A stretch of DNA of 32,766 nucleotides from Chitinophaga pinensis (GTDB taxonomy: Bacteria; Bacteroidota; Bacteroidia; NS11-12g; UBA955), in contig CAMDUE010000006.1 of the NCBI GenBank assembly GCA_945877575.1, positions 1-32,766 of the forward strand. The letters run 5' to 3'. The notes under the pieces are model-generated. The model had not been told where the DNA came from. It searched no databases and was given only the letters and a program-made list of their open reading frames with translations. Of this stretch, positions 4,462 to 31,163 are shown piece by piece (position 1 is the first letter of the stretch; the number at the start of each line of letters is the position of its first letter). The position numbers and the translations under genes were made by a program.

Positions 4462-6288
4462 ATGGATCGCAATACAATAATTGGTTTTTCCTTGATTTTC
4501 CTGATTTTGGCGGGATATTATTGGTACACAGCACCAACTCCTGAGCAGTTGGAGCAAATGAAAAAAACTCAAGACAGCTTAACTCTTGTTGAAACTAAAC
4601 GCAATGATTCTCTGAAAGTTGAAGATCAACTCGCTGCAAAATCATCCCCCGAAAAAATATCCGCCGCGGGTAGTCAAGATTCAGTTCAACAAGACCAAGT
4701 TTTTCAAGACACCAATTACATTCTAGCGAACAAGCATCTCTCTTTGACTATTTCTAATAGGGGTGCAGCTATTAAAAAGGTTCAACTAAATGAATTTACA
4801 AGGTCTGATTCATCTGAATTGATTTTAGTAGAGGCAGGTAAAAATGAACATCGTTGGACATGGTCTGATGCGCAGGGTAATCCGAAAACTTCAGATCAAT
4901 TTGAATGGAAGATTTCTGAGCAAACCAAGAATAAAATTGCCTTAAGATGGTATCCAACAGATTCGCGTGAGATCTATATTGAACAAAGTTATTCTCTAAA
5001 CGAAAGTAAACCCTATGTAGTAGGTTATGATGTTCAATTGAAGGGAATGCAAGATCAGGTTCGTCGTGGTAATTCTGATTTTAAGTTGGATTGGAGTTCA
5101 ACCTTGCAAAAACAAGAGAAAGACATGAAATGGGATGCCCAACACACTGCGTTGGTTTATAAGATGCCCGAAGAATCTCCAACATCCCTGCAGGCAACCG
5201 AAGAAGCTAATGAAACTTTGAAAAATAAGGTTCAATGGATAGCGTTTAAACAACAATATTTTAGCACGATCATCGCTTCTGCTGATGCAATATCAACAGA
5301 CACTAAGCTCAAAATGAGCAACCCCATTGATGATACCTTGAATATCAAAACTCTCAGCGCTACACTATATTCTGAGTATACAGGTGAGTCGGACAAGAAA
5401 TTCAAATTTAATTTATTTTTTGGCCCCAATAAATTTGACTTACTTGAATCAACTGATTTGGGAATAGCAAATGCTGAATTGGAGCGCATTATTCCTTTAG
5501 GATGGGGAATTTTTGGTTGGGTGAATAGACACTTGGTTATACCCGTATTCACTTGGTTAACCAATACCATAGGCAGTATGGGTATAGCAATTATGCTCCT
5601 TACCTTGGTTATTAAGATGTTCTTGTTGCCATTGGTTTACAAATCTTACATATCTACTGCCAAAATGAGAATATTGAAGCCGGAGTTGGATGAAATTAAA
5701 TCTAAACACGGTAATGATCTTCAAAAAGTTAACAGCGAAAACATGAGTCTTTACAAAAAGGCAGGTGTTAGTCCGTTGAGTGGTTGTGTACCTATGTTAT
5801 TGCAGCTGCCCATTTTGTTTGCTATGTTCCAGTTCTTTCCTGTCGCCTTTGAACTAAGACAAAAAGCCTTCCTTTGGTCTTCTGATTTAAGTCAGTGGGA
5901 TGGCCCAGCACTCGGATTTAATATCCCGTTCTACGGTGATCACGTGAGTTTCTTCACGCTGTTGATGACTGTTTCAACCTTGATTTATACTCATTTTAAT
6001 AATCAAATATCTGGTGTTACAGGTCAAATGAAATGGATGGGTTATTTCATGCCCATTATTTTCTTGGGTGTATTGAATGATTATGCTTCAGGCTTGACTT
6101 GGTACTATTTTGTGAGCAATATGGTAACCTTTGGTCAGCAGTTTGTGATTCGCAAGATGATTGACGATTCAAAATTGCACAAACAGATCGCAGAAAGCCG
6201 TAAAAAGCCCGTAGTTAAGAGTAATTTCCAAAAGAAAATGGAATTGGCAATGAAAGCAAGCCAACAAAAATCCAAAGGAAAGCGTTAA
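4462..6288 (+). CDS. yidC: Membrane protein insertase YidC
   Basis: This 609-residue protein inserts proteins into the inner membrane, alone or with SecYEG. It has an N-terminal membrane helix (FSLIFLILAGYYWY, about 7-20) and then the large periplasmic beta-supersandwich typical of Gram-negative YidC. The conserved insertase core starts near residue 345, with TNTIGSMGIAIMLLTLVIKM, the cytoplasmic coiled-coil hairpin (KPELDEIKSKHGNDLQKVN), and GVSPLSGCVPMLLQLPILFA. A lysine-rich tail ends the protein, as expected for ribosome contact. I start at ATG 4462 because the -7 element lies just upstream and the membrane helix then begins at the usual distance. Its stop abuts the stop of convergent dprA with no bases between. 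Confidence 0.97.
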   Translation: MDRNTIIGFSLIFLILAGYYWYTAPTPEQLEQMKKTQDSLTLVETKRNDSLKVEDQLAAKSSPEKISAAGSQDSVQQDQVFQDTNYILANKHLSLTISNRGAAIKKVQLNEFTRSDSSELILVEAGKNEHRWTWSDAQGNPKTSDQFEWKISEQTKNKIALRWYPTDSREIYIEQSYSLNESKPYVVGYDVQLKGMQDQVRRGNSDFKLDWSSTLQKQEKDMKWDAQHTALVYKMPEESPTSLQATEEANETLKNKVQWIAFKQQYFSTIIASADAISTDTKLKMSNPIDDTLNIKTLSATLYSEYTGESDKKFKFNLFFGPNKFDLLESTDLGIANAELERIIPLGWGIFGWVNRHLVIPVFTWLTNTIGSMGIAIMLLTLVIKMFLLPLVYKSYISTAKMRILKPELDEIKSKHGNDLQKVNSENMSLYKKAGVSPLSGCVPMLLQLPILFAMFQFFPVAFELRQKAFLWSSDLSQWDGPALGFNIPFYGDHVSFFTLLMTVSTLIYTHFNNQISGVTGQMKWMGYFMPIIFLGVLNDYASGLTWYYFVSNMVTFGQQFVIRKMIDDSKLHKQIAESRKKPVVKSNFQKKMELAMKASQQKSKGKR

Positions 6289-7429: not shown

Positions 7430-9220
7430 CTAATCGTTCAGCTTAAGAACTGCCATGAAGGCACTTTGAGGTATTTCCACATTACCAACACTTCGCATGC
7501 GTTTTTTACCTTCCTTTTGTTTTTCCAAAAGTTTCCGTTTACGACTTATGTCTCCGCCGTAACACTTGGCAGTCACGTCTTTACGCAATGCAGAAATGGT
7601 TTCTCGGGCAATGATTTTGGCGCCTACACCTGCCTGAATAGCAATTTCAAATTGCTGTTTTGGGATCAAGTCTTTGAGTTTTTTGCAAATCTTTTTACCC
7701 AAATCGAAAGCGTTGTCTTTATGAATGATGGCACTCAAGGCATCAACTTGCTTTGCATTTAGAAGGATATCCATTTTCACCAAAGTTGATTCTTGGTATC
7801 CAATGGGATGATAATCAAAACTCGCATAACCTCTTGAAATGGTTTTTAGTCGGTCGTAAAAGTCAAAAACTATCTCAGCCAAGGGCATATCAAATTTCAG
7901 GTCTACACGATCTGAAGTAAGGTATACTTGGTTTTTTAAAACTCCGCGTTTATCAAGACACAAACCCATAACTTGGCCAACGTATTCTGATTTAGTAATA
8001 ACGGTAGCCGATATATAAGGCTCTTCTACATAATCAATTTTATCTGCAGGAGGCAAATCACTTGGGTTGTTTACATCAATTCGTTCACCCTTGGTGGTGT
8101 ATGCAATATAACTTACGTTGGGTACCGTAGTGATAACGGTCATATTGAATTCGCGTTCCAAGCGTTCTTGAATAATTTCCAAGTGAAGCATTCCTAAAAA
8201 TCCGCAGCGAAATCCAAATCCTAATGCAGCAGAACTTTCGGGTTCAAAAACTATGCTAGCATCATTTAGTTGAAGTTTTTCCATGGCATCTCGGAGTTCC
8301 TCATAATCATCGGTATCTACGGGGTAGATACCCGCGAAAACCATGGGCTTTACCTCAGAAAATCCCTGAATGGCTTCAGTAGCTGGATTCTTAGCATCCG
8401 TAATGGTGTCACCCACTTGAACTTCTTTTGCGTCTTTAATACCTGAAATTATATATCCTACATCGCCCGCTTTTATAACATCTCTTGGCGACATTTCCAA
8501 TTTCAAAACACCGGTTTCATCTGCAAAATATGCTTCACCGGTATTCATGAATTTTACGTGTTGTCCTTTGCGTATTTCTCCATCAAAAACCCTGTAATAG
8601 GCTATAATTCCTCGGAAAGAATTAAAGACAGAATCAAAAATTAGGGCTTTCAATGGGGCTTGTGGATTTCCTTTCGGGGCAGGAATTCTCTCAATAATGG
8701 CTCTTAAAATATCAAATACACCTACACCTGTTTTCCCACTTGCAGGAATGATATCTGCTCTTTCGCAGCCCAATAACTCTACGATTTCATCTTTTACTTC
8801 CTCTGGCATTGCACCTGGAAGGTCAATCTTATTCAGTACAGGTATGATCGTTAAATCGTGCTCTAAAGCCATGAACAGATTCGAAATGGTTTGTGCTTCA
8901 ATTCCTTGTGCTGCATCTACAATGAGTAGCGCTCCTTCACAAGCTGCAATTGAACGACTCACTTCGTAACTAAAATCTACGTGTCCAGGGGTATCAATAA
9001 GGTTTAAAACATATTTCTGACCATCCAATTCATAATTCATTTGAATGGCGTGGCTCTTAATGGTAATGCCTCGTTCGCGTTCAAGGTCCATGTCATCCAA
9101 TAACTGAGCCTGCATTTGACGCTTGTCTATGGTTTTAGTGTATTCCAATAAACGGTCAGCAAGAGTGCTTTTGCCGTGGTCAATGTGTGCAATGATGCAG
9201 AAGTTTCTGATGTGGTTCAT
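7430..9220 (-). CDS. lepA: Elongation factor 4 (LepA)
   Basis: This 596-residue translational GTPase has full family length. G1 is AHIDHGKST at 11-19, the switch I region is [13 protein letters not shown]3 is DTPGHVDF and G4 is NKIDLP. The LepA-specific C-terminal domain is recognised by its lysine-rich end ([23 protein letters not shown], split over the last 50 residues). LepA acts on the ribosome, favouring back-translocation or 30S maturation under ionic stress. A TATATTTG -7 element lies 10 nt upstream of the ATG. dprA follows on the same strand. Confidence 0.98.
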
Positions 9221-9230
9221 AAACGAACTA

Positions 9231-9238
9231 CAAATATA
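9231..9238 (-). promoter_or_regulatory. -7 element (TATATTTG) for lepA
   Basis: A perfect TAnnTTTG match on the minus strand, 10 nt upstream of the lepA ATG and within the 37-nt gap after the phosphopantetheinyl transferase gene. It implies that lepA can be transcribed independently. Confidence 0.65.
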
Positions 9239-9257
9239 CGTGAATTCTAGGGTGTTT

Positions 9258-9884
9258 TTAGGGTTGATTCAGCAGAGTCCAAGTCAAAATATAGGGTGAT
9301 TTTCTGCGAAATTCAATATCAAATAGAAATAGGTTCTCATCTACAGTTAAACTGCCTTTAAACTCACCCGCTTGAGCATTGCTCAGATACTCAAAATCCC
9401 AGACTTTCATTTGTTCTTTAAAATCAAGTTCTTTTTGACCGTATGCCTTGTACATAGCCTCTTTCGCTGTCCAAATCAATAAAATTTGTTGAACATTATC
9501 TTGGCAAAAATGCAATTCTTCCGTGTTGCAAAATTTGTGTTTTATGCGTAAAAGTTGTTCTCTCTCATGTTCAATATCTACTCCAATACGCTTGTTTCTG
9601 TGTTCTCCCCAAAATAATAAATCTTTGGTGTGGCTGTAATTCATCTCAGGCAAAATGTTCCCTTGACTTTCCCAATAGGGTTTTCCATATTCATCTTTGG
9701 TCAATAACTTGCCCGGGTTCAGTTGGTCAATAGCTGTTTCTACCATCATTCTCTCAAGTTCTCGGCCCTTCAGCTCTTCAATCAATGAATCGGAGGAATT
9801 TGCATATTTTTGCATCAGTGCTTGGGCGTTCCACAAATGAAGCGTCTCGCCTGATTTTCCCATCCAAGTTTCCTCAATAATCAC
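9258..9884 (-). CDS. 4'-phosphopantetheinyl transferase superfamily protein (Sfp-type)
   Basis: This protein has 208 residues with a GTG start at 9884, or 201 with the ATG at 9863. It has the magnesium-binding motif GVDIE (101-105) and the [12 protein letters not shown] motif (138-149) of the Sfp/AcpT family, plus NYSHT at 82-86, which contacts coenzyme A. It transfers the phosphopantetheine arm of CoA to a carrier protein serine, here most likely fatty acid acyl carrier protein or a secondary carrier. I favour the GTG start because family members usually have about 15 residues before the first LxLW-type strand. A TAATTTTG element lies 4 nt upstream of the GTG, inside the first codons of the divergent WD40 gene. 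Confidence 0.85.
9805..9812 (+). promoter_or_regulatory. Possible -7 element (TATTTTTG) for the WD40 gene
   Basis: A TAnnTTTG match inside the phosphopantetheinyl transferase coding region, 72 nt upstream of the WD40 ATG. It is the nearest match on the plus strand; as it lies in coding sequence it may be chance. Confidence 0.3.
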
Positions 9885-14953: not shown

Positions 14954-15461
14954 GATTTTCTGGATCTACCAAACCATCGGGTAAATCCATGTGCAAAGTT
15001 CGGTCATTCTCATTGATTTGAGTAATCCATTCTTCCACAAAAGGGATTAAAATTTTGCGATTTTCGCAAACGATGTTCATCATGATTTGGCCGGGATAAT
15101 CTTCAAGAGATTCAATTTGGCCTATTACTTGTCCCTCTGCAGAAACCAATTGAAAGCCATTGATTTGAAATTGAGGAGGTACATCATCAACGGTATTTTG
15201 GTCTAAGCCAACCGTGAGCCCCAATATTTCATCTGCTTGAGTTTCAGAGTCAATGAATTGAAGTTTAACGATTTCTAGATACTTGCTCATTTCTTCAATG
15301 AGAAAGGGGACCCCTTTTTCGTTTATTAAAACGTAAAGGTAGTCCCCTGGTTCAGGGATGAGGTCATCATCATCCCAAAGTATATTCAGACTGCCTTTGT
15401 AACCGTGTTTTGAGGTAATTTTCCCAATTGGAATGATTGGGGGAGGCAGTATCTGGGTCAT
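14943..15461 (-). CDS. rimM: 16S rRNA processing protein RimM
   Basis: A 172-residue ribosome maturation factor that binds S19 and acts on the 30S head. The N-terminal RimM domain shows [20 protein letters not shown], and the C-terminal PRC-barrel is visible as [15 protein letters not shown] and [14 protein letters not shown]. It shares one base with the rpsP stop (a TAATG junction) and overlaps trmD by 11 bp. Both neighbours fit the conserved rpsP-rimM-trmD order. Confidence 0.94.
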
Positions 15462-16027
15462 TATTCTGCGCTTGCTTCAGCAGGAGCATCAGCACCTTCT
15501 GTGGTAGCGTCGTCAGCAGCAACTTCTTCTGTAGTCTCCTCCTCAGCAGGGTTAGCAGCTGCTTCAGCTTCTGCTAATTTAGCCGCTAATTTAGCTGCAT
15601 AATCTTCTTTGCGCTTAACTTCAGCTGCAAGAGCTGCTGCACGTTGGTCAGCTGCTGCTTGATTAAGTCCGTCGCGTTTTGCTTGAACCTTGCCTTCTTT
15701 TTCGTTCAACCACTCGTTGAAGCGCTGATCAGCAACTTCTTGGGTGATAGCACCTTTATTAACACCTACTTGCAAGTGCTTTTTGTAAGCAGCACCTTTG
15801 TATGAAAGGATAGCGCGTGCGGTGTCAGTGGGTTGAGCACCTTTTAACAACCAATCTACAGCCTTATCAAGGTCTAGAATGATGGTAGCAGGGTTGCTGA
15901 TGGGGTTGTAAGTACCGATTTTCTCGATGAATCTACCGTCGCGAGGAGATCTCTGATCTGCTACAACGATGTGATAGAAAGCTCTTTTCTTTCTACCGTG
16001 TCTTTGCAATCTAATTTTGGTTGCCAT
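15461..16027 (-). CDS. rpsP: 30S ribosomal protein S16, long form
   Basis: A 188-residue protein whose first 80 or so residues are canonical S16 ([20 protein letters not shown], then [14 protein letters not shown]). The remaining hundred residues are an extension: a lysine/alanine helical part ([20 protein letters not shown]) and then an acidic Ala/Glu/Thr tail. Such extended S16 proteins are usual in Bacteroidota, whereas E. coli S16 has 82 residues. It is the first gene of the operon rpsP-rimM-trmD-exonuclease-pseudouridine synthase-ykgJ-like. rplS, the usual fourth gene in Proteobacteria, is missing. Confidence 0.97.
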
Positions 16028-16052
16028 ATTTTTACTCTTTCTTCTATTTTCA

Positions 16053-16084
16053 TCCTAACCCGTAGGACGCTCCTCCGAAAAGGA
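16053..16084 (-). promoter_or_regulatory. rpsP leader with two small stem-loops
   Basis: The leader between the -7 element and the rpsP ATG is about 55-60 nt long, much longer than most leaders here. It contains TCCTA/TAGGA arms at 16053-16057 and 16063-16067 with a 5-nt loop, and TCCT/AGGA arms at 16071-16074 and 16081-16084. Whether they bind S16 or another factor is unknown. Confidence 0.35.
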
Positions 16085-16087
16085 CTG

Positions 16088-16095
16088 CAAAGATA
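16088..16095 (-). promoter_or_regulatory. -7 element (TATCTTTG) for the rpsP operon
   Basis: A perfect TAnnTTTG match on the minus strand, 60 nt upstream of the rpsP ATG. The remaining intergenic sequence to 16196 is AT-rich and holds the divergent promoter of the response regulator gene. Confidence 0.65.
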
Positions 16096-16179
16096 AGAAA
16101 GTCAAAACAATTTGCCAAATGGTTCAGTGATTTACCCAATTTTGGGGATATGTGACAAATTAATTAATCCTATTATTGC

Positions 16180-16187
16180 TAACTTTA
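16180..16187 (+). promoter_or_regulatory. Near-consensus -7 element (TAACTTTA) for the response regulator gene
   Basis: Seven of eight positions match TAnnTTTG, 9 nt upstream of ATG 16197, in line with the spacing of other genes here. The final G is replaced by A, so the promoter may be weak or need an activator. Confidence 0.45.
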
Positions 16188-16196
16188 ATATAATTC

Positions 16197-16838
16197 ATGT
16201 TGAAAAGACGAGTTGTTATCTGCGATGATCATCAAGTAGTAATTGAAGGATTGAAAATGATTCTTCAATCAAATTCAACCATTGAAATTGTTGGAGCGTT
16301 TCTAGATCCTCAAGAATTCAACAACTATTGGAACATCCATTACACAAATATTGATGTTGTATTGATGGATGCTCATTTGAAAAATGATGTATCAGGATTG
16401 GATTTAAAGTATAAAACTGCTCGATTTACAAGCGGTTGTTATTGGGTACTATTTTCGTCGTTTGTTGACAAATATTTGGCTGTCCAATCCAAGAAGATGG
16501 GCTTTCACGCTTGTATTTCTAAGGAAATTCCAGCGCCGAGGTTGATTCAATTGATTGAATTCGGAAGCCCAGATTTCTATAGTTTCCCCGATGTATTAGA
16601 CAGGCCTGAAATAGGGGTAATTGAATCGGTCTTGGAGAGTTTAGCAAGCTTGACAAAAGCAGAAAAGAGAGTATTAAATAAATTAAAAGAGGGTAAACGA
16701 TCTAAAGAATCAGCAGATGAATTGAATGTAAGTGTTCATACGTTTGAAACTCATAAAAAAAATATATTTAGAAAGCTAAATGTCAATAGCACTGCAGAGT
16801 TAATGAGCTTAATTGACGATTATAAATTTATTACATGA
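16197..16838 (+). CDS. NarL/FixJ-family response regulator
   Basis: A 213-residue two-component regulator. The receiver domain (about 4-125) has the acidic pair Asp10-Asp11, the phosphoacceptor Asp58 in VVLMDAHL, the Ser in VLFSS and the Lys in CISKE, so it should be phosphorylated normally. The C-terminal LuxR-type helix-turn-helix (about 150-210) runs from LTKAEKRVLNKLKEGKRSKE to SVHTFETHKKNIFRKLNV. It should bind DNA as a dimer after phosphorylation. Its stop codon overlaps the ATG of the next gene (ATGA), and two membrane kinase genes follow, which are the obvious partners. A NarL-like inverted repeat at 19934-19949 is a candidate binding site. Confidence 0.92.
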   Translation: MLKRRVVICDDHQVVIEGLKMILQSNSTIEIVGAFLDPQEFNNYWNIHYTNIDVVLMDAHLKNDVSGLDLKYKTARFTSGCYWVLFSSFVDKYLAVQSKKMGFHACISKEIPAPRLIQLIEFGSPDFYSFPDVLDRPEIGVIESVLESLASLTKAEKRVLNKLKEGKRSKESADELNVSVHTFETHKKNIFRKLNVNSTAELMSLIDDYKFIT

Positions 16839-18115
16839 TTTCAGAGTCAACTCAACTAATTACTGTTTTTGATGAACAATTGTTTCATTTTAGTAGCGGA
16901 TTGATAGCAGGTGGATTCGTGTTTTTTACTTTAATATCAATGTCTATTGTTTGGTTCTTGAAGGATCCATTACTCAAATTGATGTTGTTTTTTACTAGTC
17001 TCCAAACAGTATTTGTAATTTACGATTTTCAAAATGATGATTTCGGAAAATTCAATATGGTTAAATTAATATTGGTTGCTCTATTTACTTTTCTACTCCG
17101 TCAATATCAACATGAAATTAAAAAGCGATTAGACATTTCATTAACCAAAATCGAAAAGAATCAAATATTTATTTTTGTTTCTATTTTAATCATTGGAATT
17201 GCCTATTTAATTAATAATCTGTCTATTCTAAGGTTGTTATTAATTGTGTATCTTATTTTATGGCTGATTTTTGGTTATAGAATAAATAAAATATTGAAGG
17301 AAGGCCATTTTTTTTACACGTTTTCTGGCTTTCTATTGTGGCTTTATAGTTGGTTGGTATTTTGTTACATAATATTTCCTTCTCCTAACTTTTTAATAGC
17401 TCTCCACAAGCAGATATCATCAATTGTGTTTTTGGGATGGTTGGGTGTATCTTTTATTGCTGCGCTTAGTTTGATTCATCAAGTGGTTCAATTGAATGCT
17501 GAAAATTTCCATTTGGAAACTGAGCAATTAAATTTAAAGAATAAACTAGGATTTGTGCAATTAGAATCCTCTGAAAATGAGCGTAAGAGAATAGTCTCAG
17601 AAATTCACAATGATGTTTTGAACAGGATTGATATGTTGTCTATGGTAGCCAATCAACCAAAACTAAATCAAGAAAATATAAATACCAGCCTAACAGCTTC
17701 TCTTAAAGTTCTTCGTAGGTATACTTATAAACTTTATCCTCCGCATATTGAAATTTTGGCTCTTTCAGATATTTTTTATCGTGAGGCCGAAATTTGGAAA
17801 GAATCAAATATTCAAATCAATGTATTTTTTGATTCAGTATGGAGTGAGTTGCCGCAAGAAAATAAGATGCCTATTTTTAGGTTCGTTGAGATTGTTACTC
17901 ATTCGGTAACTAGATTAACTAGTATTAATTCAGCGAATTGGAATTTTGCTGTATTAAATAATAACTATCTCCTTCAGTTAAGATTTACTGGTGTATTTCA
18001 GGATTTTTATTTGAGTCAAGAAAATTATTTGATTTATAAAGATTTATTGGATGCAGAAATTAATCAAATTATAAGCGAGAACGAACTTGAAATATCTTTA
18101 AAATTTAAAATTTAG
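16835..18115 (+). CDS. 7TM histidine kinase-like protein, probable pseudokinase
   Basis: A 426-residue protein with about seven membrane helices in residues 22-215, no extracellular domain of note, a short coiled coil, and a HisKA_3-type dimerisation helix, ENERKRIVSEIHNDVLNRID. His258 is present, but the acidic residue that normally follows it is Asn259. The ATP-binding half is reduced: where the next gene has FEFISNSGKYA this protein has FVEIVTHSVTRLT, and no DxGxG or GxG lid motif can be found before the end. The protein therefore probably cannot bind ATP or autophosphorylate. It overlaps the regulator gene by 4 bp and is 2 nt before a complete kinase, so it may be a sensor, phosphatase or scaffold that pairs with that kinase. 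Confidence 0.82.
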   Translation: MISESTQLITVFDEQLFHFSSGLIAGGFVFFTLISMSIVWFLKDPLLKLMLFFTSLQTVFVIYDFQNDDFGKFNMVKLILVALFTFLLRQYQHEIKKRLDISLTKIEKNQIFIFVSILIIGIAYLINNLSILRLLLIVYLILWLIFGYRINKILKEGHFFYTFSGFLLWLYSWLVFCYIIFPSPNFLIALHKQISSIVFLGWLGVSFIAALSLIHQVVQLNAENFHLETEQLNLKNKLGFVQLESSENERKRIVSEIHNDVLNRIDMLSMVANQPKLNQENINTSLTASLKVLRRYTYKLYPPHIEILALSDIFYREAEIWKESNIQINVFFDSVWSELPQENKMPIFRFVEIVTHSVTRLTSINSANWNFAVLNNNYLLQLRFTGVFQDFYLSQENYLIYKDLLDAEINQIISENELEISLKFKI

Positions 18116-18117
18116 AC

Positions 18118-19932
18118 ATGAGGAGGTTGTTGTTTTGGTGCTTACTAAGCGTGTTAATCCATAGTTGTAATTTTCAAGATAGCGAAAACAGATTAATTAA
18201 AGAGGGACTTGTTGTTTCGGAGCCAAATGTGACGGCCACTGAAATTCAACAGTTTTTTAATAGTCATCCATCTATTGATTCTTTTAGCATGAATGGAGAA
18301 TTTCATTGGTTTAAATTTTCAATAGATAAGTTCACTCCTGGCCAAAATGCCCTAGTAGTTCCTGACTACCAAATAAATATGCTCAGACTTTTTTTGGTTG
18401 TGGATTCAATTATTCAAGAAGAAATTTTAGTTACAGGAGATGAAATACCTGTCAGTCAATATTCTCATAAATCAAGATCCAATGTTGCCATACTGAACCT
18501 AGAAAAAAACAGAGAATACCAAGTTTTTGCCCAGTATTTGAGACCAGGAAATAGACCGCAATTAAATATTAATTTAATGTCTATTCCCGAGTATACCAAA
18601 TATAGTATATCTCTGGAATGGTCTTATGGAATTATATATGGTTTACTCATAGTTTACCTTTTTCTGGTTTTGTCTGTTTTAATTTGGACTACCGATATTA
18701 AATATTTCTTTTTCTTGTTGTGGGTTCTTTCGTATTTAGTTTATTTTTCTACAACTTCTGGACATTTAAAATTTTATGTTTTCCCTGAAATGGGAGAGAG
18801 TTTTAGTTTGATTCGATTAGAGTTTATGTTGATTTCCATGTATTCAATGACTGAATTTTCTCTCATTTATTATAAATTTCGAAATTCATTAAAGTGGGTT
18901 ATTTGGATTTGGTATTCTTTGTTTCTTTGGAGTTTAATAGTGATTTTGTGTGAACCCATTACGGGGAAGTCTATGTTAGATGGCAACGCAAAGGCTTATA
19001 TAATTTTTATTCGAGGGATATTTTTTAGTTTTATAACACTGCAGTCTTATTTATCTATTAAATGGGTGATTAAGAATAAAACCATATCGTTCCTGAGCGT
19101 ATTGTTTGTCTTGTATTTGTTAAACATGTTTCTTTATCTATATCAAACCGTTTATCTTGATAATGTAGACTTTGATTATTTTATTCTTGCAACAGTTTGG
19201 TTTCTTGTTTTGGAAATTCTTTCAATTGCTGGCGGGGTGTCTTATTATCTTATGAAAGACAGTCAGAAGAATTTGGCCCTTTTGCAACAAAATACTCAAT
19301 TAAAAAAGGAAATCAACCGCGTCTACTTCACTGTTCAAGAAGAAGAAAAACGAAGAATTGCCAGTGAAATTCACGATGATATACTTAATCGACTTTCTAT
19401 GTTACTTTTACTTTCAAGAGACGGTTATTTGTCGCAATCTAATTTGGTTGAACGTTTAAGAACATTGAGTAAGGATGTTAAATTATATACACTAGGTCTT
19501 TATCCCATTTGGGTAAAAAGAATGAGTTTATTGGAAATCATTAATCAAAATATTCAAGAACTATGCAAGGCCTTAAATCTTACATTGATTTATAATATTT
19601 CTGATGAATTACCCAAGCTCAATACAACTTTAAACTTGCAGATCTTTAGAATCATTTTTGAATTTATTTCAAACTCCGGTAAATATGCTCAAGCTAATTT
19701 CATTCACCTTACCATAGATTTTAATCCTGAAACAAATGAAATGGTTTTAACCATTTTTGATGATGGTAAAGGCTTGGAAATGAATCACAAGCCGGGTTTA
19801 GGTATCATCAGTATCCAAAATCGGGTATCTATCATGAATGGCAAAATGAACATTCAAAATAGACCCGGTATTGGTTTAGGATGGACAATAACCATCCCCC
19901 TTCAAAATATGGATCTCGGCGAAATTTATTAA
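18118..19932 (+). CDS. 7TMR-DISM sensor histidine kinase (HisKA_3 type)
   Basis: A 604-residue sensor kinase. The N-terminal signal sequence ends in LIHSC, so Cys17 may be lipidated. A periplasmic domain of about 150 residues (DISMED2-like beta fold, often a carbohydrate-type binding module) precedes seven membrane helices at about 167-378. A coiled coil leads to the H-box EEEKRRIASEIHDDILNRLS with His419 and Asp420. The ATPase domain has the N-box Asn519 in FEFISNSGKYA, the G1 box FDDGKG at 547-552 and the G2 box GLG at 560-562. It should autophosphorylate and pass phosphate to the regulator encoded two genes upstream. The periplasmic domain suggests that it senses an external ligand. Confidence 0.9.
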   Translation: MRRLLFWCLLSVLIHSCNFQDSENRLIKEGLVVSEPNVTATEIQQFFNSHPSIDSFSMNGEFHWFKFSIDKFTPGQNALVVPDYQINMLRLFLVVDSIIQEEILVTGDEIPVSQYSHKSRSNVAILNLEKNREYQVFAQYLRPGNRPQLNINLMSIPEYTKYSISLEWSYGIIYGLLIVYLFLVLSVLIWTTDIKYFFFLLWVLSYLVYFSTTSGHLKFYVFPEMGESFSLIRLEFMLISMYSMTEFSLIYYKFRNSLKWVIWIWYSLFLWSLIVILCEPITGKSMLDGNAKAYIIFIRGIFFSFITLQSYLSIKWVIKNKTISFLSVLFVLYLLNMFLYLYQTVYLDNVDFDYFILATVWFLVLEILSIAGGVSYYLMKDSQKNLALLQQNTQLKKEINRVYFTVQEEEKRRIASEIHDDILNRLSMLLLLSRDGYLSQSNLVERLRTLSKDVKLYTLGLYPIWVKRMSLLEIINQNIQELCKALNLTLIYNISDELPKLNTTLNLQIFRIIFEFISNSGKYAQANFIHLTIDFNPETNEMVLTIFDDGKGLEMNHKPGLGIISIQNRVSIMNGKMNIQNRPGIGLGWTITIPLQNMDLGEIY

Positions 19933-19952
19933 ATACCTATTTTTAGGTATTT
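19931..19952 (+). promoter_or_regulatory. Palindromic operator-like site resembling a NarL 7-2-7 box
   Basis: Perfect 9-bp arms, AAATACCTA at 19931-19939 and TAGGTATTT at 19944-19952, surround TTTT. Within it, TACCTAT (19934-19940), 2 nt and TTAGGTA (19943-19949) match 13 of 14 positions of the NarL consensus TACYYMT-n2-AKRRGTA. It overlaps the kinase stop codon. No T-run follows, so a terminator role is less likely. Its centre lies about 40-45 bp before the transcription start predicted from a near -7 element at 19972-19979 (CAATTTTG). Confidence 0.5.
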
Positions 19953-19997
19953 ATAGATTATTGAAATTACTCAATTTTGAATACTCATTCAAAATTA

Positions 19998-21974
19998 ATG
20001 GAGAGAATAATTCAGTTAAAGCAAATAGTCTTGTTTATTTCATTATTTAATTTAACAGGCATTGTTTATTCGCAAAATGAGAATTCTGAAAATAAAAAGG
20101 AATTTAATTTTCCAGTAACTCGAGAAACAAATGAACTTCCCGCAGAATGCAAAACAGGTTTAAATGAACCCGGTTTCTATTTTAAAGGACTTTTCTATCA
20201 TTCAAGCCTTGGGGAGCATGTTCAATTGTCTACAGATATCATTATGGGAACTGCAAATGACCCTAGTCCGCGTTTTCATTACACTTGGATTCAAGATGGT
20301 GAACAATACGGGGATAATGAGATTGGTCGTGAGCCATTTTATACAATTAAACCTCGATTAAGTGGTTGGAGATTAAAAGTACGCATCGTAGGGCCAAATG
20401 GAGAAGTTGAAGAAAAAATGATAACAGATATCTCAACAATATATTACCCGTGGGTAAAAGGGAAGTCTGATCTTTCAAAATGTAATATAGATGTAATCGG
20501 TATTTATTGTTTGGCATACACAGATGAAACAAGAAGGGCGTTTAATAAGGCCATCACAAATTTTAAAAACCGCCAACCCAAATCAGAAAACGGGCGTCCT
20601 GCTTTGGAGACAAACAGCAATCAGAAATCCTCTAGTGAAAACTTTCGTAATCAAAGCAGCCAATTAAATTCAAAGGAGGTTCAAGATAATACAGCTTCAA
20701 CACAACCCCAACAAATTCAAAATCAAAAGCAACCATCGCAAACTCAAAAACCCGCTTTAAATCAAGGGAAATTAACTGAAAATGAAAGGATGGATGATAA
20801 AATCAAAGGGCTAGTGCGGGATGAGAATGGAAATTTTTGGGTGAAATTACCCAACGGTACCTTAGCTCAATTAGATGATGAACAGAATGCTGATTTTAAA
20901 ATTGCTTACGCTAAAAGCCAAGCTGATAATGCAAAATCAAATGCAGAAACGGCTAAAAGGGAAAGAGAACAACAGATACAAAACCAAATTGATCAGTTGA
21001 AATTGGATCAAGAAAATAGGGCAAAGAGAGCTTCACAAGTACAACAAGATTTGAATTCGGTTAGTAACGTGTTGATCCAAAATTTTTATCAAGGTGAAGC
21101 TGCCCGACAAGGCTGGGATAAGATTTATGAACTGAGTATAATGTCAGGTAATTATCAATCTGTAAATCAAATTGAGCAAATTTATAGATCTAACTATACA
21201 CAGATATCACAAGAAGCAAATAGTATTTCAAACGCTCGCTGGGGGAATTTCACAAACGGAATAGCCACGCTAAAAACAATATCTGACCCTATGGCAGCAG
21301 GAATTGGAGGCGGTGTATTAGCCGTAGGTACTATGATTTCTAGTGCTAATGCCGATAAAAAAGAAAGAGAAGCAAAAGAAAGACTACTCGCGGAACGCAA
21401 TGAGGCAATATTTCAGTTTAAGACAAAACGCAAAAATATTCGAATGCGCATTTTTGATGATTTCCCCGAGGGTGGCACTCCATTAGAGCAACATAAAATA
21501 ACCAGTCCGGATGTGTATTTTATTGCTTATTATATAGATACATCTACTTTGTTCGAAGAAAAACCGAAAATTATTGTTAGCAATGTTTTTAGTATTCCAA
21601 AAGAAAGGGATGGATCATACATGTTCAAAAGTTCATTGATGAAAAAAGTAAAGAACACATTTGGCATGAATGCAATTATTGTTGGGTACTTCATTCAAGA
21701 AAGTGTCGCTTCAGATTTAAGAGGTAAACTCATCGAATTGGCGACATTAGCAGATTATGAAATACAGGAAGTACAATTAAAGTTTAAAACATCCACCGAT
21801 GTAAATAACGAGGGGTCGAATGATTTTTGGGGATTATCAGAACAGCCAAAAATTCCTCAAAGTAGCGAAGTTAGGACCAACAACAACAACAACAAAAGCA
21901 TAAAAAAACAAAAAGAGCAAGTGAATGATGACTTTTGGGAGATTTCAGAACCAATTAAAAAAACAAATCAATAA
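19998..21974 (+). CDS. Secreted/envelope protein of unknown function with C-terminal DFW motifs
   Basis: A 658-residue protein that I do not recognise. A signal peptide (about 1-25, ending VYSQ) is followed by a domain with beta strands and three cysteines (51, 162, 171; about 35-185). Then come a Gln/Asn/Ser-rich disordered linker (about 190-262), a short motif GLVRDENGNFWVKLPNG, a charged coiled coil (about 300-352), a glycine-rich hydrophobic segment (430-450) and a C-terminal alpha/beta domain (about 480-600). The tail carries two copies of a short motif, DFWGLSE (609-615) and DFWEISE (645-651). ATG 19998 is preferred over a TTG at 19977, which lies in the putative -7 element. The gene follows the kinases and a palindromic site, so it is a likely target of the system. 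Confidence 0.65.
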   Translation: MERIIQLKQIVLFISLFNLTGIVYSQNENSENKKEFNFPVTRETNELPAECKTGLNEPGFYFKGLFYHSSLGEHVQLSTDIIMGTANDPSPRFHYTWIQDGEQYGDNEIGREPFYTIKPRLSGWRLKVRIVGPNGEVEEKMITDISTIYYPWVKGKSDLSKCNIDVIGIYCLAYTDETRRAFNKAITNFKNRQPKSENGRPALETNSNQKSSSENFRNQSSQLNSKEVQDNTASTQPQQIQNQKQPSQTQKPALNQGKLTENERMDDKIKGLVRDENGNFWVKLPNGTLAQLDDEQNADFKIAYAKSQADNAKSNAETAKREREQQIQNQIDQLKLDQENRAKRASQVQQDLNSVSNVLIQNFYQGEAARQGWDKIYELSIMSGNYQSVNQIEQIYRSNYTQISQEANSISNARWGNFTNGIATLKTISDPMAAGIGGGVLAVGTMISSANADKKEREAKERLLAERNEAIFQFKTKRKNIRMRIFDDFPEGGTPLEQHKITSPDVYFIAYYIDTSTLFEEKPKIIVSNVFSIPKERDGSYMFKSSLMKKVKNTFGMNAIIVGYFIQESVASDLRGKLIELATLADYEIQEVQLKFKTSTDVNNEGSNDFWGLSEQPKIPQSSEVRTNNNNNKSIKKQKEQVNDDFWEISEPIKKTNQ

Positions 21975-21983
21975 TAAATAAAT

Positions 21984-22850
21984 ATGCGAAATATATTAGT
22001 TTACCTTTTTTTATTTGGTTCAATTATTAATTTGGTTGGTCAATCTAATAACCAAACAAATGCTATTGCCAAAATCAAATATCAAGAGGCCGAAGAAGCT
22101 TTTGAATCTGGTAAATTCGATGTTGCACTGAAAAAACTGAATAACGTGGAAGATTTACTGGGTTCCTCAAATTCTAAAATTTTATTCTTGAAAATTTTAT
22201 TAGAAGACACTTTGTTGAAATTAACAAGAACTACCAGAATTCCTAGTTTTAAGCAAATGAATACGGTGAAATCAGATATTAATTTCTACATAAAAAATTA
22301 TTATTCAGTAAGCGATGATAAGCTAGCACAAACCATGAAAATTGCCGAGTATTATGACACAATACCGTCAGATTATGCTGAATATAAAATTTGGTTTGAT
22401 GGGAAAATGAGAATTCTGTTGAATTATAAAAAAAAGATAGAGTCTGAAATTGAACGTGAAGAAATTTACTCAGATAGTTTAAGAAAAGTATTACTAAAAA
22501 AACAGAAAGCTATCGGGAATCGATATCTTTTCGCTGGAATAGGATTTGGAGCTTTTTGTTATAAATCAATAAAAATGGCGATAAAATTTAAGAATTTATT
22601 CAATGAATCTCCACTGAATGAATACGAGACAGATTTAGACGATAAACGCGACGCTTGGACTGTTTCAGCAGCTTATTCAGGAATTTTAGGCTTGATTTTC
22701 ATCCCTGTAGGTTTGACGCCAACTGAAAAAGTCAAATCTAAATCAACTGTTAAGTATACCGATGCTATCAGTCAATCTCAACAAAATATCGCAGAACTCA
22801 AAGGATATCTAGAGGCATATTCAGAATATATAAGGCTCAGTATTATCTAG
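21984..22850 (+). CDS. Envelope protein with TPR-like N-terminus and two hydrophobic segments
   Basis: A 288-residue protein of unknown function. A signal peptide (about 1-20, ending LVGQS) precedes a helical pair resembling one TPR unit (YQEAEEAFESGKFDVALKKL). A helical region with a basic/acidic coiled coil (about 145-175) follows, and then two hydrophobic stretches, YLFAGIGFGAFCYKS (near 185) and AAYSGILGLIFIPVG (near 232). A final helical segment ends the protein. It starts 9 nt after the preceding gene with no visible promoter, so the two are probably co-transcribed and may act together at the envelope. It is the last gene of the sensor cluster and converges on the helicase gene. Confidence 0.6.
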   Translation: MRNILVYLFLFGSIINLVGQSNNQTNAIAKIKYQEAEEAFESGKFDVALKKLNNVEDLLGSSNSKILFLKILLEDTLLKLTRTTRIPSFKQMNTVKSDINFYIKNYYSVSDDKLAQTMKIAEYYDTIPSDYAEYKIWFDGKMRILLNYKKKIESEIEREEIYSDSLRKVLLKKQKAIGNRYLFAGIGFGAFCYKSIKMAIKFKNLFNESPLNEYETDLDDKRDAWTVSAAYSGILGLIFIPVGLTPTEKVKSKSTVKYTDAISQSQQNIAELKGYLEAYSEYIRLSII

Positions 22851-22859
22851 ATTTTCCAT

Positions 22860-22892
22860 TGAATTAATGTCAATTCACCTCATTTTTATGAG
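22860..22892 (+). terminator. Weak stem-loops in the convergent gap
   Basis: Two short perfect dyads, TGAATT/AATTCA (22860-22865 and 22872-22877) and CTCAT/ATGAG (22879-22883 and 22888-22892), lie in the 89-nt gap between converging genes. Neither has a clear T-run. They may serve as poor terminators; nothing else is visible in this gap. Confidence 0.25.
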
Positions 22893-22939
22893 CTTATTGC
22901 TGTTTCAGAAAGATTAAATTTAATCGGTAGTAAGTCCCC

Positions 22940-25282
22940 TTACAAAATACGCATCTTGGCGAACTTCAAAACCAAAGTCTTTAATCCTACGGAATCAAAA
23001 CTAACGTTGGCTTTTTTGCTATCGCCTTCACCATCAATGCTCAACACATTTCCAATTCCAAAGCGCTGGTGTTGAACGCGGTCTCCAACCTTCAAGCCTG
23101 TAATGTCACCGGCGACAAAATTGGGATCTTCCGGAGGCAATGGAGCAGTAGATCTGCTGCTTCCGCTGGTGAATATCTTAGGGCCTTTGACAGGTTCTTT
23201 TTTGCTTACATAACGCTCTGAACTTTGACTTCCGTATGAGCGTCCCCCGAAAGAAGAATCAATGTCATCAATCATTGAGCGCTGCTTCATGGAAGCCAAA
23301 CTCATGTCAAGGTAACTTGAATCTATTTCCGATAGAAAACGACTGGGCTCGCAATGAAGCAAGCTGCCGTGTTTGAATCTACTGGTTGCGAAACTCAAGA
23401 ATAATTTCTGTTCGGCACGGGTAATGGCCACGTAAAACAACCTGCGTTCTTCCTCAATTTCAGAACGGTTTAAAAGGGCCATTTGCGATGGAAACAGATT
23501 CTCTTCCAAACCCACGATGAACACCACGGGGAATTCAAGCCCCTTCGATGCATGTATGGTCATCAAAGAAACGCAGTCTCTGTTCGGGTCATTGTCTTTC
23601 TGTTCATCTGTGTAAAGTGCCACTTTTTCCAAGAAGATAGGAAGAGTTTTTTCGTCTTCGCTTTCGTCATCTTCTACAAATTCTTGGATGCTATTTAAAA
23701 GCTCGGTGATGTTTTCGTAGCGCGAAATACCTTCAATAGATTTGTCTTCGTAAAGGGCCTTGAGCAATCCAGAATGTCGAGCAACATCTGTCGCTAGTTC
23801 AAAGGCATTTTTGGTGGTAAGTTGCCCTCGGAAACCTTCCATCATCATGGCAAAATTTTCCACCTTAGCGGCACTGCTGCCAATTTCAGGGTATCTTTTT
23901 ACGTTGTTGATTACCTCGCCCAAACTCGTTTGATTTTGGGTTGCAACGTAAATTAAGCGTGTCAATGTGGTATCTCCAATTCCCCTTGTAGGGTAATTAA
24001 TGATTCGCTTTAATGCCTCTTCGTCATTCGGGTTGATGACCAAACGCAAATAAGATAAAAGATCTTTGATCTCCTTTCGGGAGTAAAAGCTCTGCCCCCC
24101 GTAAATTTTATAGTCAATATTTTGCCTTCTCAACGATTCTTCCAATGCACGACTTTGCGCGTTGGTTCTGTAAAGAATAGCAAAAGCTTTATTGGGAAGT
24201 TGTAATTTATGCTTCTCTTCAAAAATGGTTTCGGCCACACGTTTTCCCTCGTCATTGTCAGATGGATTTCTGATAACTTTGATTTTATCACCGTCTTCGT
24301 TGGAGGTCCAAATTTCTTTTTTGAGCTGTTTTTTATTGTGGGATATTAGACTGCTCGCAGCCTGTACAATGTTTTTAGATGAACGGTAATTCTGTTCGAG
24401 TTTAAAAATGGATACGTCTGGATAGTCGCGCTCGTAACTCAAGATGTTCTCAATATTGGCACCTCGGAAAGCATAAATACTTTGTGCGTCATCGCCTACC
24501 ACACAAATATTTTGGTGCACGGCGGCTAACCTTCGAACAATCATGTACTGAACATGGTTGGTATCTTGATACTCATCCACCATGATGTACTTGAATCGGT
24601 GTTGCCATTTATTCAGAACTTCGGGAAACTTCTCTAATAATTTATAGGTATTAACCAATAAGTCGTCAAAATCCATTGCTCCTGCTTTGAAGCAACGTTC
24701 ATTGTAGGTTTTAAAGATTTCAGCGAACAGAGGTCGACCAGCCGCTTTATCTCCTTGTCGTAATTCTTCATTGCTGGCATAGGCCTTGGCTGTGATCAGG
24801 TTGTTTTTGGATAAGCTGATTCTACTTAAGACCAATCCAGGTTTATACACCTTGTCATCAAGGTTCATTTCTTTTAAAATGGCCTTTATGAGGCTTTTGG
24901 CGTCATCTGAATCATAGATGGTAAAACTTTGAGGATAACCTAGCTTATCTGCTTCTTGTCGTAAAATTCGGGCAAACACAGAGTGGAATGTACCCATCCA
25001 AATATTGCGCGCTTCAGCACCTACCAAGTTTTCAATTCGGTGACGCATTTCTTTTGCGGCTTTATTGGTAAAGGTTAACGATAAGATATTGAAGGGATCG
25101 GTGCCCTTGTGCATGATATAAGCAATGCGATAAGTGAGCACTCGGGTTTTACCTGAACCTGCACCGGCAATGATCATAACGGGACCATCAACATGCACGG
25201 CAGCTTCTCGCTGATTGGCGTTTAATTGATCAAGAAATGGAGGAATTTCATCTAGAGGGGACTGATCGGGCCAATTCAACAT
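22940..25282 (-). CDS. ATP-dependent DNA helicase, PcrA/UvrD family
   Basis: A 780-residue superfamily 1A helicase of full length. Motif I is AGAGSGKT (39-46), motif Ia is LSLTFTNKAAKEM, motif II is VDEYQD (235-240), motif III is VVGDDAQSIYAFRGA, and motif VI lies in EERRLFYVAITRA near residue 620. A C-terminal Tudor-like module, VGDRVQHQRFGIGNVLSIDG and beyond, is the part that contacts RNA polymerase in PcrA. The enzyme unwinds 3'-5' in nucleotide excision repair, replication restart and removal of RecA filaments. I cannot separate uvrD from pcrA by sequence. It has a TACTTTTG element 4 nt upstream of its ATG, in the 18-nt gap after the kinase gene. Confidence 0.95.
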   Translation of the reverse strand: MLNWPDQSPLDEIPPFLDQLNANQREAAVHVDGPVMIIAGAGSGKTRVLTYRIAYIMHKGTDPFNILSLTFTNKAAKEMRHRIENLVGAEARNIWMGTFHSVFARILRQEADKLGYPQSFTIYDSDDAKSLIKAILKEMNLDDKVYKPGLVLSRISLSKNNLITAKAYASNEELRQGDKAAGRPLFAEIFKTYNERCFKAGAMDFDDLLVNTYKLLEKFPEVLNKWQHRFKYIMVDEYQDTNHVQYMIVRRLAAVHQNICVVGDDAQSIYAFRGANIENILSYERDYPDVSIFKLEQNYRSSKNIVQAASSLISHNKKQLKKEIWTSNEDGDKIKVIRNPSDNDEGKRVAETIFEEKHKLQLPNKAFAILYRTNAQSRALEESLRRQNIDYKIYGGQSFYSRKEIKDLLSYLRLVINPNDEEALKRIINYPTRGIGDTTLTRLIYVATQNQTSLGEVINNVKRYPEIGSSAAKVENFAMMMEGFRGQLTTKNAFELATDVARHSGLLKALYEDKSIEGISRYENITELLNSIQEFVEDDESEDEKTLPIFLEKVALYTDEQKDNDPNRDCVSLMTIHASKGLEFPVVFIVGLEENLFPSQMALLNRSEIEEERRLFYVAITRAEQKLFLSFATSRFKHGSLLHCEPSRFLSEIDSSYLDMSLASMKQRSMIDDIDSSFGGRSYGSQSSERYVSKKEPVKGPKIFTSGSSRSTAPLPPEDPNFVAGDITGLKVGDRVQHQRFGIGNVLSIDGEGDSKKANVSFDSVGLKTLVLKFAKMRIL

Positions 25283-29192: not shown

Positions 29193-29267
29193 TACCAAGT
29201 ACCATCTACCATCTACCAATTACCAGGTACCAGGTACCAGGTACCAGGTACTCGGTACCTTGTACCA
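29191..29267 (+). repeat. Tandem heptamer array based on GGTACCA
   Basis: Eleven 7-bp units occupy exactly 77 bp. Almost all share a TACC core: GTTACCA, AGTACCA, TCTACCA twice, ATTACCA, GGTACCA three times, then GGTACTC, GGTACCT and TGTACCA. GGTACC is self-complementary, so the array can fold on itself. The remaining bases to 29304 show no feature except the unrecognised promoter of the next gene. Confidence 0.92.
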
Positions 29268-30842: not shown

Positions 30843-31163
30843 TTAAAAGTGTTCTTGAAAATATTTCCAAGATTTTCTTACCTCCTGTATGTAGAGGAGG
30901 CTCAACAAGGGTACAACCAAAATGAACATTTTGTTGTAATTCCAAGCGGTTTTAAAGTCTAAATGTATGCAGTGTTGCACTGCCCGGGTAATTCCGCAAC
31001 CGGGGCAATCAATATCAGTAATTAACTTACTGATGCAAATAGTTGGGCCTTGGTCAAAGAAATTGACGGGCAGAAAAATGAGAACAAAAGGCATTAAAAC
31101 AATAAGAACCCTGTAGAGGGTTCTTATTGAAGATCTAATATTTAGTTTTTTAATGGCTTGCAT
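30843..31163 (-). CDS. DUF2752 membrane protein
   Basis: A 106-residue protein with two or three membrane helices (about 17-35 and 78-92) and the DUF2752 signature CPGCGITRAVQHCIHLDF, in which the two cysteines of CPGC could bind metal or form a disulfide. Its function is unknown. Its ATG shares one base with the stop of the TM2-domain gene (a TAATG junction), so the pair is translationally coupled and probably works together in the membrane. Confidence 0.85.
   Translation of the reverse strand: MQAIKKLNIRSSIRTLYRVLIVLMPFVLIFLPVNFFDQGPTICISKLITDIDCPGCGITRAVQHCIHLDFKTAWNYNKMFILVVPLLSLLYIQEVRKSWKYFQEHF

Follow-up and report, generated by a model that had tools for sequence, protein, structure and literature searches.

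Five closely packed genes in contig CAMDUE010000006.1 (assembly GCA_945877575.1, Chitinophaga pinensis) raise the question of whether a response regulator (RR), a pseudokinase (PK), a histidine kinase (HK) and two secreted proteins (E4 and E5) make up one signalling unit, as an original prediction from the DNA letters had proposed, or were joined from separate parts. The whole stretch analysed, of 32,766 nt, is referred to as the window; its genome is G000, other G numbers are other genomes and L numbers are fetched loci. The account that we favour, with a probability of roughly 0.6, is that of a sensing switch (RR-PK-HK, unit A) followed in tandem by an inserted E4-E5 cassette (unit B) that was already wired for control. 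The open reading frames (ORFs) bore out the predicted layout, with five genes on one strand, the same spacing, and housekeeping genes (rpsP and uvrD) on the opposite strand at both sides. The mechanical ORF of E4 begins earlier, at TTG 19977, and ATG 19998 was taken as the likely start. The features are the following.

16197-16838, plus strand: RR
16835-18115, plus strand: PK, in an ATGA overlap with RR
18118-19932, plus strand: HK, after a 2-nt gap
19998-21974, plus strand: E4, secreted, after a 65-nt gap; beta-rich N-terminal part, coiled coil, own C-terminal domain (residues 482-605 approximately), D[FY]W motifs at residues 609 and 645
21984-22850, plus strand: E5, secreted, after a 9-nt gap; TPR-like N-terminal module and lineage-specific C-terminal part
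19930-19953: inverted repeat 1, with the predicted NarL-type operator AAATACC-N8-GGTATTT at 19931-19952, overlapping the HK stop codon
19973-19996: inverted repeat 2, unlike the operator in sequence, just 5' of the E4 start codon
16133-16148: weak inverted repeat of the operator type 5' of RR (10 of 14 positions matched within 16130-16151)
19903-19928: HK-side copy of the duplicated HK/uvrD overlap, equal to 22943-22968 at 21 of 26 bases
22943-22968: uvrD-side copy of the same overlap, identical in genome G011 at 25 of 26 bases
15461-16027, minus strand: rpsP, the flank on one side of the five genes
22940-25282, minus strand: uvrD/pcrA, the flank on the other side

Order of events at the rpsP-uvrD site

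The junction between HK and E4 indicated in which order the parts came together. In G011, the sister of G000 in the uvrD tree, HK and uvrD overlap by 45 nt at their ends. In the window two copies of part of this overlap lie 3 kb apart, one at each gene, and no other place on the two strands of the window matches at more than 17 of 26 bases; judged from this alignment, the HK tail in the window derives from the uvrD 3' end, as a copy that has since diverged. Since that requires a former overlap of HK and uvrD, the sensor appears to be the older part and E4-E5 the later one, and a composite structure of two units assembled in this order is very probable. Most simply read, the overlap became duplicated when the cassette entered: an independent unit, consisting of the operator and E4-E5, would have been placed behind HK in the lineage of the window, with duplication of about 26 bp that left both HK and uvrD intact. 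The stretch after the duplicated bases opens directly with the operator and, because this first feature is one that similar cassettes also carry, the cassette was probably wired before it arrived.

Twenty regions were fetched from relatives and annotated using the proteins of the window; 17 of them contain uvrD. A kinase adjoined uvrD in six of these 17, with PK in G011, G004 and G007, without it in G006 and G008, and with the contig ending within HK in G013. Neither E4 nor E5 was found between kinase and uvrD in any of the six, and this, together with the later entry seen at the junction, contradicts the claim that the five genes are one unit. The uvrD-rpsP interval was empty in seven regions (G009, G002, G005, G003, G022, G017, and G016), held other ORFs in three (G012, with products of 363 and 239 aa, G020, and G014) and was cut by a contig end in G010. 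As these states are scattered over the uvrD tree, unit A is labile at a variable site (16028-22939 of the window). Among the 117 relatives searched, 13 belong to the same genus, and none of these 13 genomes, several of them incomplete, gave a match to E4 or E5; the few matches among the 117 came from other families and were weak (E of about 1e-4 to 1e-3), except in G110, which carries a stand-alone E4 C-domain.

The original prediction had also described the five genes as rich in AT, and this was confirmed (GC content of 0.289-0.354 vs. 0.389 ± 0.031 in the other 25 ORFs of the window). GC at third codon positions was 1.2-2.3 standard deviations below the other ORFs, a level shared by the ORFs at 31163 and 31809, and the codon-usage check that the prediction had asked for gave ordinary synonymous usage (distance of 0.13-0.18 vs. 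0.163 ± 0.041). In related species too the signalling genes are richer in AT than uvrD, so the low GC is not a sign of foreign DNA, and a mobile island deduced from it was rejected for this reason and for the ordinary codon usage. A phage or plasmid origin was set aside as well, no relative being found in searches of viral contigs with E4 and E5 and of plasmids with E4. An Rfam scan of 15900-23100 gave no match at the gathering threshold.

Probable operator and regulator genes around E4-E5

The operator-like site predicted between HK and E4 turned out to be two perfect inverted repeats, both with 10-bp arms and 4-nt loops. One such repeat arose in 105 of 20,000 base shuffles and two in none. 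The site at 19931-19952 matched AAATACC-N8-GGTATTT at 14 of 14 half-site positions. This TACC-N8-GGTA arrangement is shared by the NarL 7-2-7 model site TACCCCTAAAGGGGTA, which consists of inverted heptamers with a 2-bp spacer (PMC4549865). We took a TACC-N8-GGTA inverted repeat located 5' of target genes as the mark of a NarL-type operator, and both sequence and position agree with it. Unlike the NarL site, the sites described here also conserve the flanking AAA and TTT; regulator, host and targets differ, and the site described here is a predicted one.

The 14 half-site positions were scored over 43 loci (572,681 bases). Ten sites reached at least 13/14, all of them intergenic, as compared with a mean of 0.29 and a maximum of 5 for 104 permuted half-sites and with 0-2 sites for other spacings from 4 to 12. 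Six of the 20 full loci presented such a site before E4 (the window, L091, L108, L127, L128, and L129); in L108 and L129 a divergent HK or GerE gene shares the site. Within the 150 nt upstream of E4 a site occurred in 6 of 22 cases, as compared with 0 for every permuted half-site and 0 in 500 rounds of shuffled upstream regions. At 12/14 there were 22 sites (permuted mean 4.8, maximum 15), and those gained include sites 5' of RR in G004, G006, and G008, one in the GerE promoter of L124, and one ahead of the inner E4 start in L125; this last site lies upstream of E4 only if the inner ATG at 7942 is the start. A search restricted to perfect arms found inverted repeats before 3 of 21 other E4s. 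The view that the inverted repeat is unconserved was dropped after comparison of L091 with the window and the half-site scan.

Exact operators were also present away from full cassettes. In G016, a genome of the same family, one lies elsewhere in the genome, 57 nt 5' of an RR-HK pair (L068, 1481-1502), and possibly reflects self-regulation of that pair. Within 8 kb, locus L109 of G771 has three (390-411, 6017-6038, and 8364-8385), one between RR and HK and two before other ORFs, one of which is an orphan E5-like gene (8978-9679); a NarL regulator and a TPR-containing kinase are located there as well. G771 also harbours a full cassette, and L109 is likely to be a second node of the regulon. Short tandem repeats of the TACCAGG type, at 29214-29257 of the window, were found as pattern matches.

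A gene with a GerE helix-turn-helix (HTH) domain was located within 3.2 kb of 6 of the 20 cassettes (0.72 expected, P = 1e-4). This limit was set by the distance in the window itself (3190 nt); without the window the figures were 5/19 (0.68 expected, P = 7e-4) and, within 1 kb, 4/19 (0.21 expected, P = 7e-5), the expected density coming from nine genomes, five of them already known to have such a neighbour. In L108 of G771 a 7TMR-DISM kinase and a NarL regulator are divergent from E4, whereas one-component GerE proteins of 250-263 aa, forming one family (32-42% identity), abut E4-E5 in L095, L124, L125, and L129; a PAS match was obtained in those of L095, L124, and L129 and none in that of L125. 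By operator (at least 13/14, or 12/14 for L124 and L125) or by neighbour, 9 of the 20 cassettes can be linked with a GerE-type regulator. A GerE-like match on the right-hand side of L095 (E = 1.9e-5) was read from its sequence as a sigma factor and left out; also uncounted were a regulator-like gene with no Pfam GerE match that lies with a kinase 1.9 kb off in L126, and two GerE genes at 3.4 kb in L090, beyond the limit. The cassettes of L124 and L131 are cut by contig ends, so that neighbours may be missed. A neighbour test in genomes that were partly picked (5/10) is not relied on. In L094 a 382-aa kinase-like ORF that the HK profile did not flag lies 0.6 kb 3' of the cassette.

Several observations weigh against the control of E4-E5 proposed here. 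The half-site was derived from the window once the palindromes of the window and L091 were known, so that these two are not independent and the independent tally is 4 of the remaining 18 full loci; 14 of the 20 full E4s lack a site of at least 13/14, and the 12/14 level includes five clear sites within genes. The RR promoter scores 12/14 in G004, G006, and G008 and 11/14 in G007, but only 10/14 in the window and 9/14 in G011; since its own promoter matches poorly, binding of the operator by RR is uncertain. In the genome of the window the stricter pattern TACCTA-N4-TAGGTA, with up to one mismatch, was not enriched (14 sites vs. 16 for the reversed control), and the only exact copy in G011 was found where a gene unrelated to the system ends. 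Within the fetched loci the GerE enrichment was marginal (4/36 rank-1 genes vs. 3/126, P = 0.04; P = 0.11 for ranks 1-2), and the genome of the window has four GerE matches from which a regulator could come.

Taken together, the operator scan across loci and the GerE neighbours raise the odds of regulator control: E4-E5 is probably controlled by a NarL-type regulator, and it is somewhat better than an even bet that this is the RR next door. The cassette would have arrived wired for a NarL-type regulator, RR being the likeliest binder in its new place. Thus the predicted control of the last two genes by the regulator retains support from distant genomes, in the operators before 6/20 E4s and before NarL-type regulator genes and in the GerE neighbours of 5/19 other cassettes, whereas its premise of a single evolved unit does not. 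Judged by the operator, a secreted-protein cassette that joined an existing sensor operon could be controlled at once, so that insertion would itself have provided the regulatory wiring.

The E4-E5 family and alternative explanations

E4 and E5 both carry signal peptides and had been predicted as envelope proteins of no known kind; the E4 and E5 of the window indeed gave nothing above cut-off in Pfam, NCBIfam, PHROGs or PADLOC, and no counterpart was recognised in searches of open-licence literature. They belong to an undescribed family, nameless in the libraries searched, and the main value of the locus lies in this family with its operator. The family is patchy and thinly spread in Bacteroidota: a single-sequence search found E4 in 5 of 395 genomes of the class (including that of the window), and an E4 profile in 4/239 and 8/224 genomes of two families, with previously known members counted. 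Carriers include Fulvivirga imtechensis, Sphingobacterium chuzhouense (L091), Chitinophaga chungangae (L095), Chitinophagaceae bacterium PMP191F, and several metagenome-assembled genomes (MAGs). A weak E4-like stretch with 28% identity and in-frame stops is also present elsewhere in the genome of the window (L002, G000:C10:30536-30775).

Twenty-two proteins with the E4 C-domain were annotated, of which 20 are full E4s (that of the window included) and two are secreted, stand-alone domains of 172 aa from two MAGs of one genus (L092, 5980-6498; L093, 9842-10360). An E5 gene lies downstream on the strand of E4 in all 20 full loci, with one to five per cassette and 44 in total, a few of them short. 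All full E4s have at least one [DNE][FY]W motif after the C-domain, while the two stand-alone proteins have neither the tail motif nor an E5 nearby. For 14 of the 20 full E4s, not one of 1000 tail shuffles gave as many motifs. In E5 the common part is the signal peptide and some 100 residues (AKxKYExAEEAF...LG..N.KILYLKI), behind which the C-terminal parts of 41 proteins fall into 22 clusters; in some E5s other than that of the window Pfam recognised Sel1, PDZ, FKBP, and FGE-sulfatase-like domains. E4 and E5 distances were correlated (Mantel r = 0.49; 1 of 5000 permutations gave as high a value) in 14 of the 20 loci, those with a long enough match to the E5 N-module, which in some was not in the first E5.

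The structural model of the window's E5 showed confident helices over residues 20-125, in hairpins that look TPR-like; Foldseek matches included TPR domains that bind C-terminal peptides (Hop, FKBP52, and Sgt2), all with E > 0.001, and the E4 tail is not of the EEVD type. The E4 model had a mean predicted local distance difference test score of 52, was poor outside the helices and the C-domain, and gave no useful PDB match; neither did the C-domain profile match PDB sequences. A SPOR-like look of this domain was supported by no search.

The family architecture, with a constant N-module, varied C-domains and tail motifs, suggests a scaffold with clients. E4 could serve as a scaffold, in the periplasm or at the surface, with C-terminal D[FY]W motifs to which E5s attach by their TPR-like N-modules, the E5s being clients that bear exchangeable domains on a constant module. 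In the cohesin-dockerin system a scaffold has repeated docking elements, and clients combine a constant docking module with varied functional domains; here the docking would involve short peptides of the D[FY]W type on one side and TPR-like modules on the other, the likeness drawn being one of architecture. Pfam gave no TPR match for the window's E5, and PDB sequences gave no meaningful match. Against such docking stand the absence of any E5 Foldseek match at E ≤ 0.001 and the six full E4s, that of the window among them, whose motif number was reached by 12-77 of 1000 shuffles; in the window's E4 the first tail motif falls within the domain boundary used for this test. The build of the family suggests a docking system, and docking of E5 N-modules on E4 tail motifs is put forward tentatively. 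More speculative still is the wider picture of a cell-envelope scaffold-client system that moves pre-wired with a NarL-type operator and has landed behind a sensor whose regulator can read it; in this picture the exchangeable client domains would be the Sel1, PDZ, FKBP, FGE-like, barrel-like or membrane parts.

The most serious alternative to an inserted, pre-wired cassette is that the neighbours met by chance, E4-E5 answering to another GerE-type regulator or to none while RR serves other genes. No 7TMR-type kinase was detected alongside 18 of the 20 cassettes, precisely the occurrence of the last two genes apart from the kinases that the original prediction had named as telling against it; L091, L127, and L128 have the operator with no adjoining GerE gene, so that control in trans exists, and the RR promoter of the window is a poor operator match. 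Nevertheless, the GerE matches of the genome are so few, and a perfect operator in the 65-nt gap behind one operon that encodes such a protein, with cassette and RR-PK-HK on the same strand, fits chance so poorly, that we regard this alternative as unlikely, though the least unlikely of those considered. It is less probable that, instead of an operator, the inverted repeats form a terminator or attenuator downstream of HK. Strong RNA folding of the HK-E4 gap (z = -5.8; 0 of 200 shuffles fold as well) and the T run after the copy in L091 would suit this function, but no T run follows the repeat in the window, a terminator scan lists none there, and the sites precede E4, RR, and HK starts, in some cases between divergent genes, a position that does not suit a terminator.

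The two remaining alternatives concern what E4-E5 is and where it came from, and both seem very improbable. A polymorphic toxin, defence or contact-dependent system would share with E4-E5 the constant N-module, the long C-terminal parts in many clusters and the arrays of up to five genes; however, no toxin occurs among the recognised C-domains, PADLOC matched neither protein, and a gene pattern suggestive of immunity was not seen, although no search was aimed at one. An ancestral five-gene unit from which relatives lost E4-E5 might be argued from the sister assembly G011, only 74% complete, and from the frequent losses at the site. It is the least probable of all, given the absence of E4-E5 there in six of six relatives and an HK tail that presupposes overlap with uvrD without E4-E5 in between.

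The sensing genes

In the inserted-cassette account the signal would enter through HK, which would sense by its 7TMR-DISM part and phosphorylate RR. RR is a NarL/FixJ-type response regulator, with receiver and GerE HTH both above the Pfam cut-off, as in known NarL/FixJ two-component control. HK had 7TMR-DISMED2 and HATPase_c above the cut-off and 7TMR-DISM_7TM (18.9 of 29 bits) and HisKA_3 (16 of 24 bits) below it, with the His motif visible in alignment (EIHDDILNR). Of the two kinase-like 7TM proteins predicted, HK is a 7TMR-DISM kinase by its sensor and ATPase domains, and PK has six strong hydrophobic segments, a 7TM fold being unproven for it. PADLOC gave no match for PK or HK, and matched RR to CARF-HTH models over the HTH only.

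The designation of PK as a pseudokinase was well founded. It matched no Pfam family, HATPase included, but aligned with HK over the kinase half, where the motif of the dimerisation and histidine-transfer (DHp) helices is kept (EIHNDVLNR) and ATP-binding motifs are absent. The N and G boxes were missing in all four PKs compared (G000, G011, G004, and G007), and the phospho-acceptor His was present in three, that of the window included. Between the window and G011 the proportion of non-synonymous differences (0.31) was lower than that of synonymous ones (0.73), and residues 226-310, the DHp part, were 75% identical, whereas identity was 47% in the membrane part and 43% in the dead ATPase part. 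From these two comparisons PK is, as its sequence indicates, under retention, mainly for its DHp helices. With these helices and no usual ATP binding, PK would be a built-in modulator, pairing with HK or taking or withdrawing phosphate; the loss of the His from the PK of G007 counts against this account.

Action through the DHp domain is most likely, by analogy with two precedents. In the RetS/LadS-GacS-GacA network of Pseudomonas, whose sensor kinases likewise have 7TMR-DISMED2, kinase domains touch directly and in this way one membrane kinase adjusts the activity of another (PMC7695008); the modulators of that network are orphans, whereas here modulator, kinase and regulator share one operon and the modulator lacks ATPase motifs. 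In Corynebacterium glutamicum a ChrS with a destroyed catalytic (CA) domain still shapes the signalling of its paralogue HrrS, an effect that was abolished by DHp removal and did not need the His; heterodimers were observed for native ChrS, not for the truncated form (PMC9491836). That pseudokinase arose in laboratory evolution, whereas PK is an old conserved paralogue. Kept mainly in its DHp helices and encoded within the operon, PK is a natural model for kinase-pseudokinase pairs. In G007 (L055, 2822-4617), where PK lacks the His, HK is split into three ORFs and the module seems to decay; G009, the sister of G007 in the uvrD tree, is without the sensing unit.

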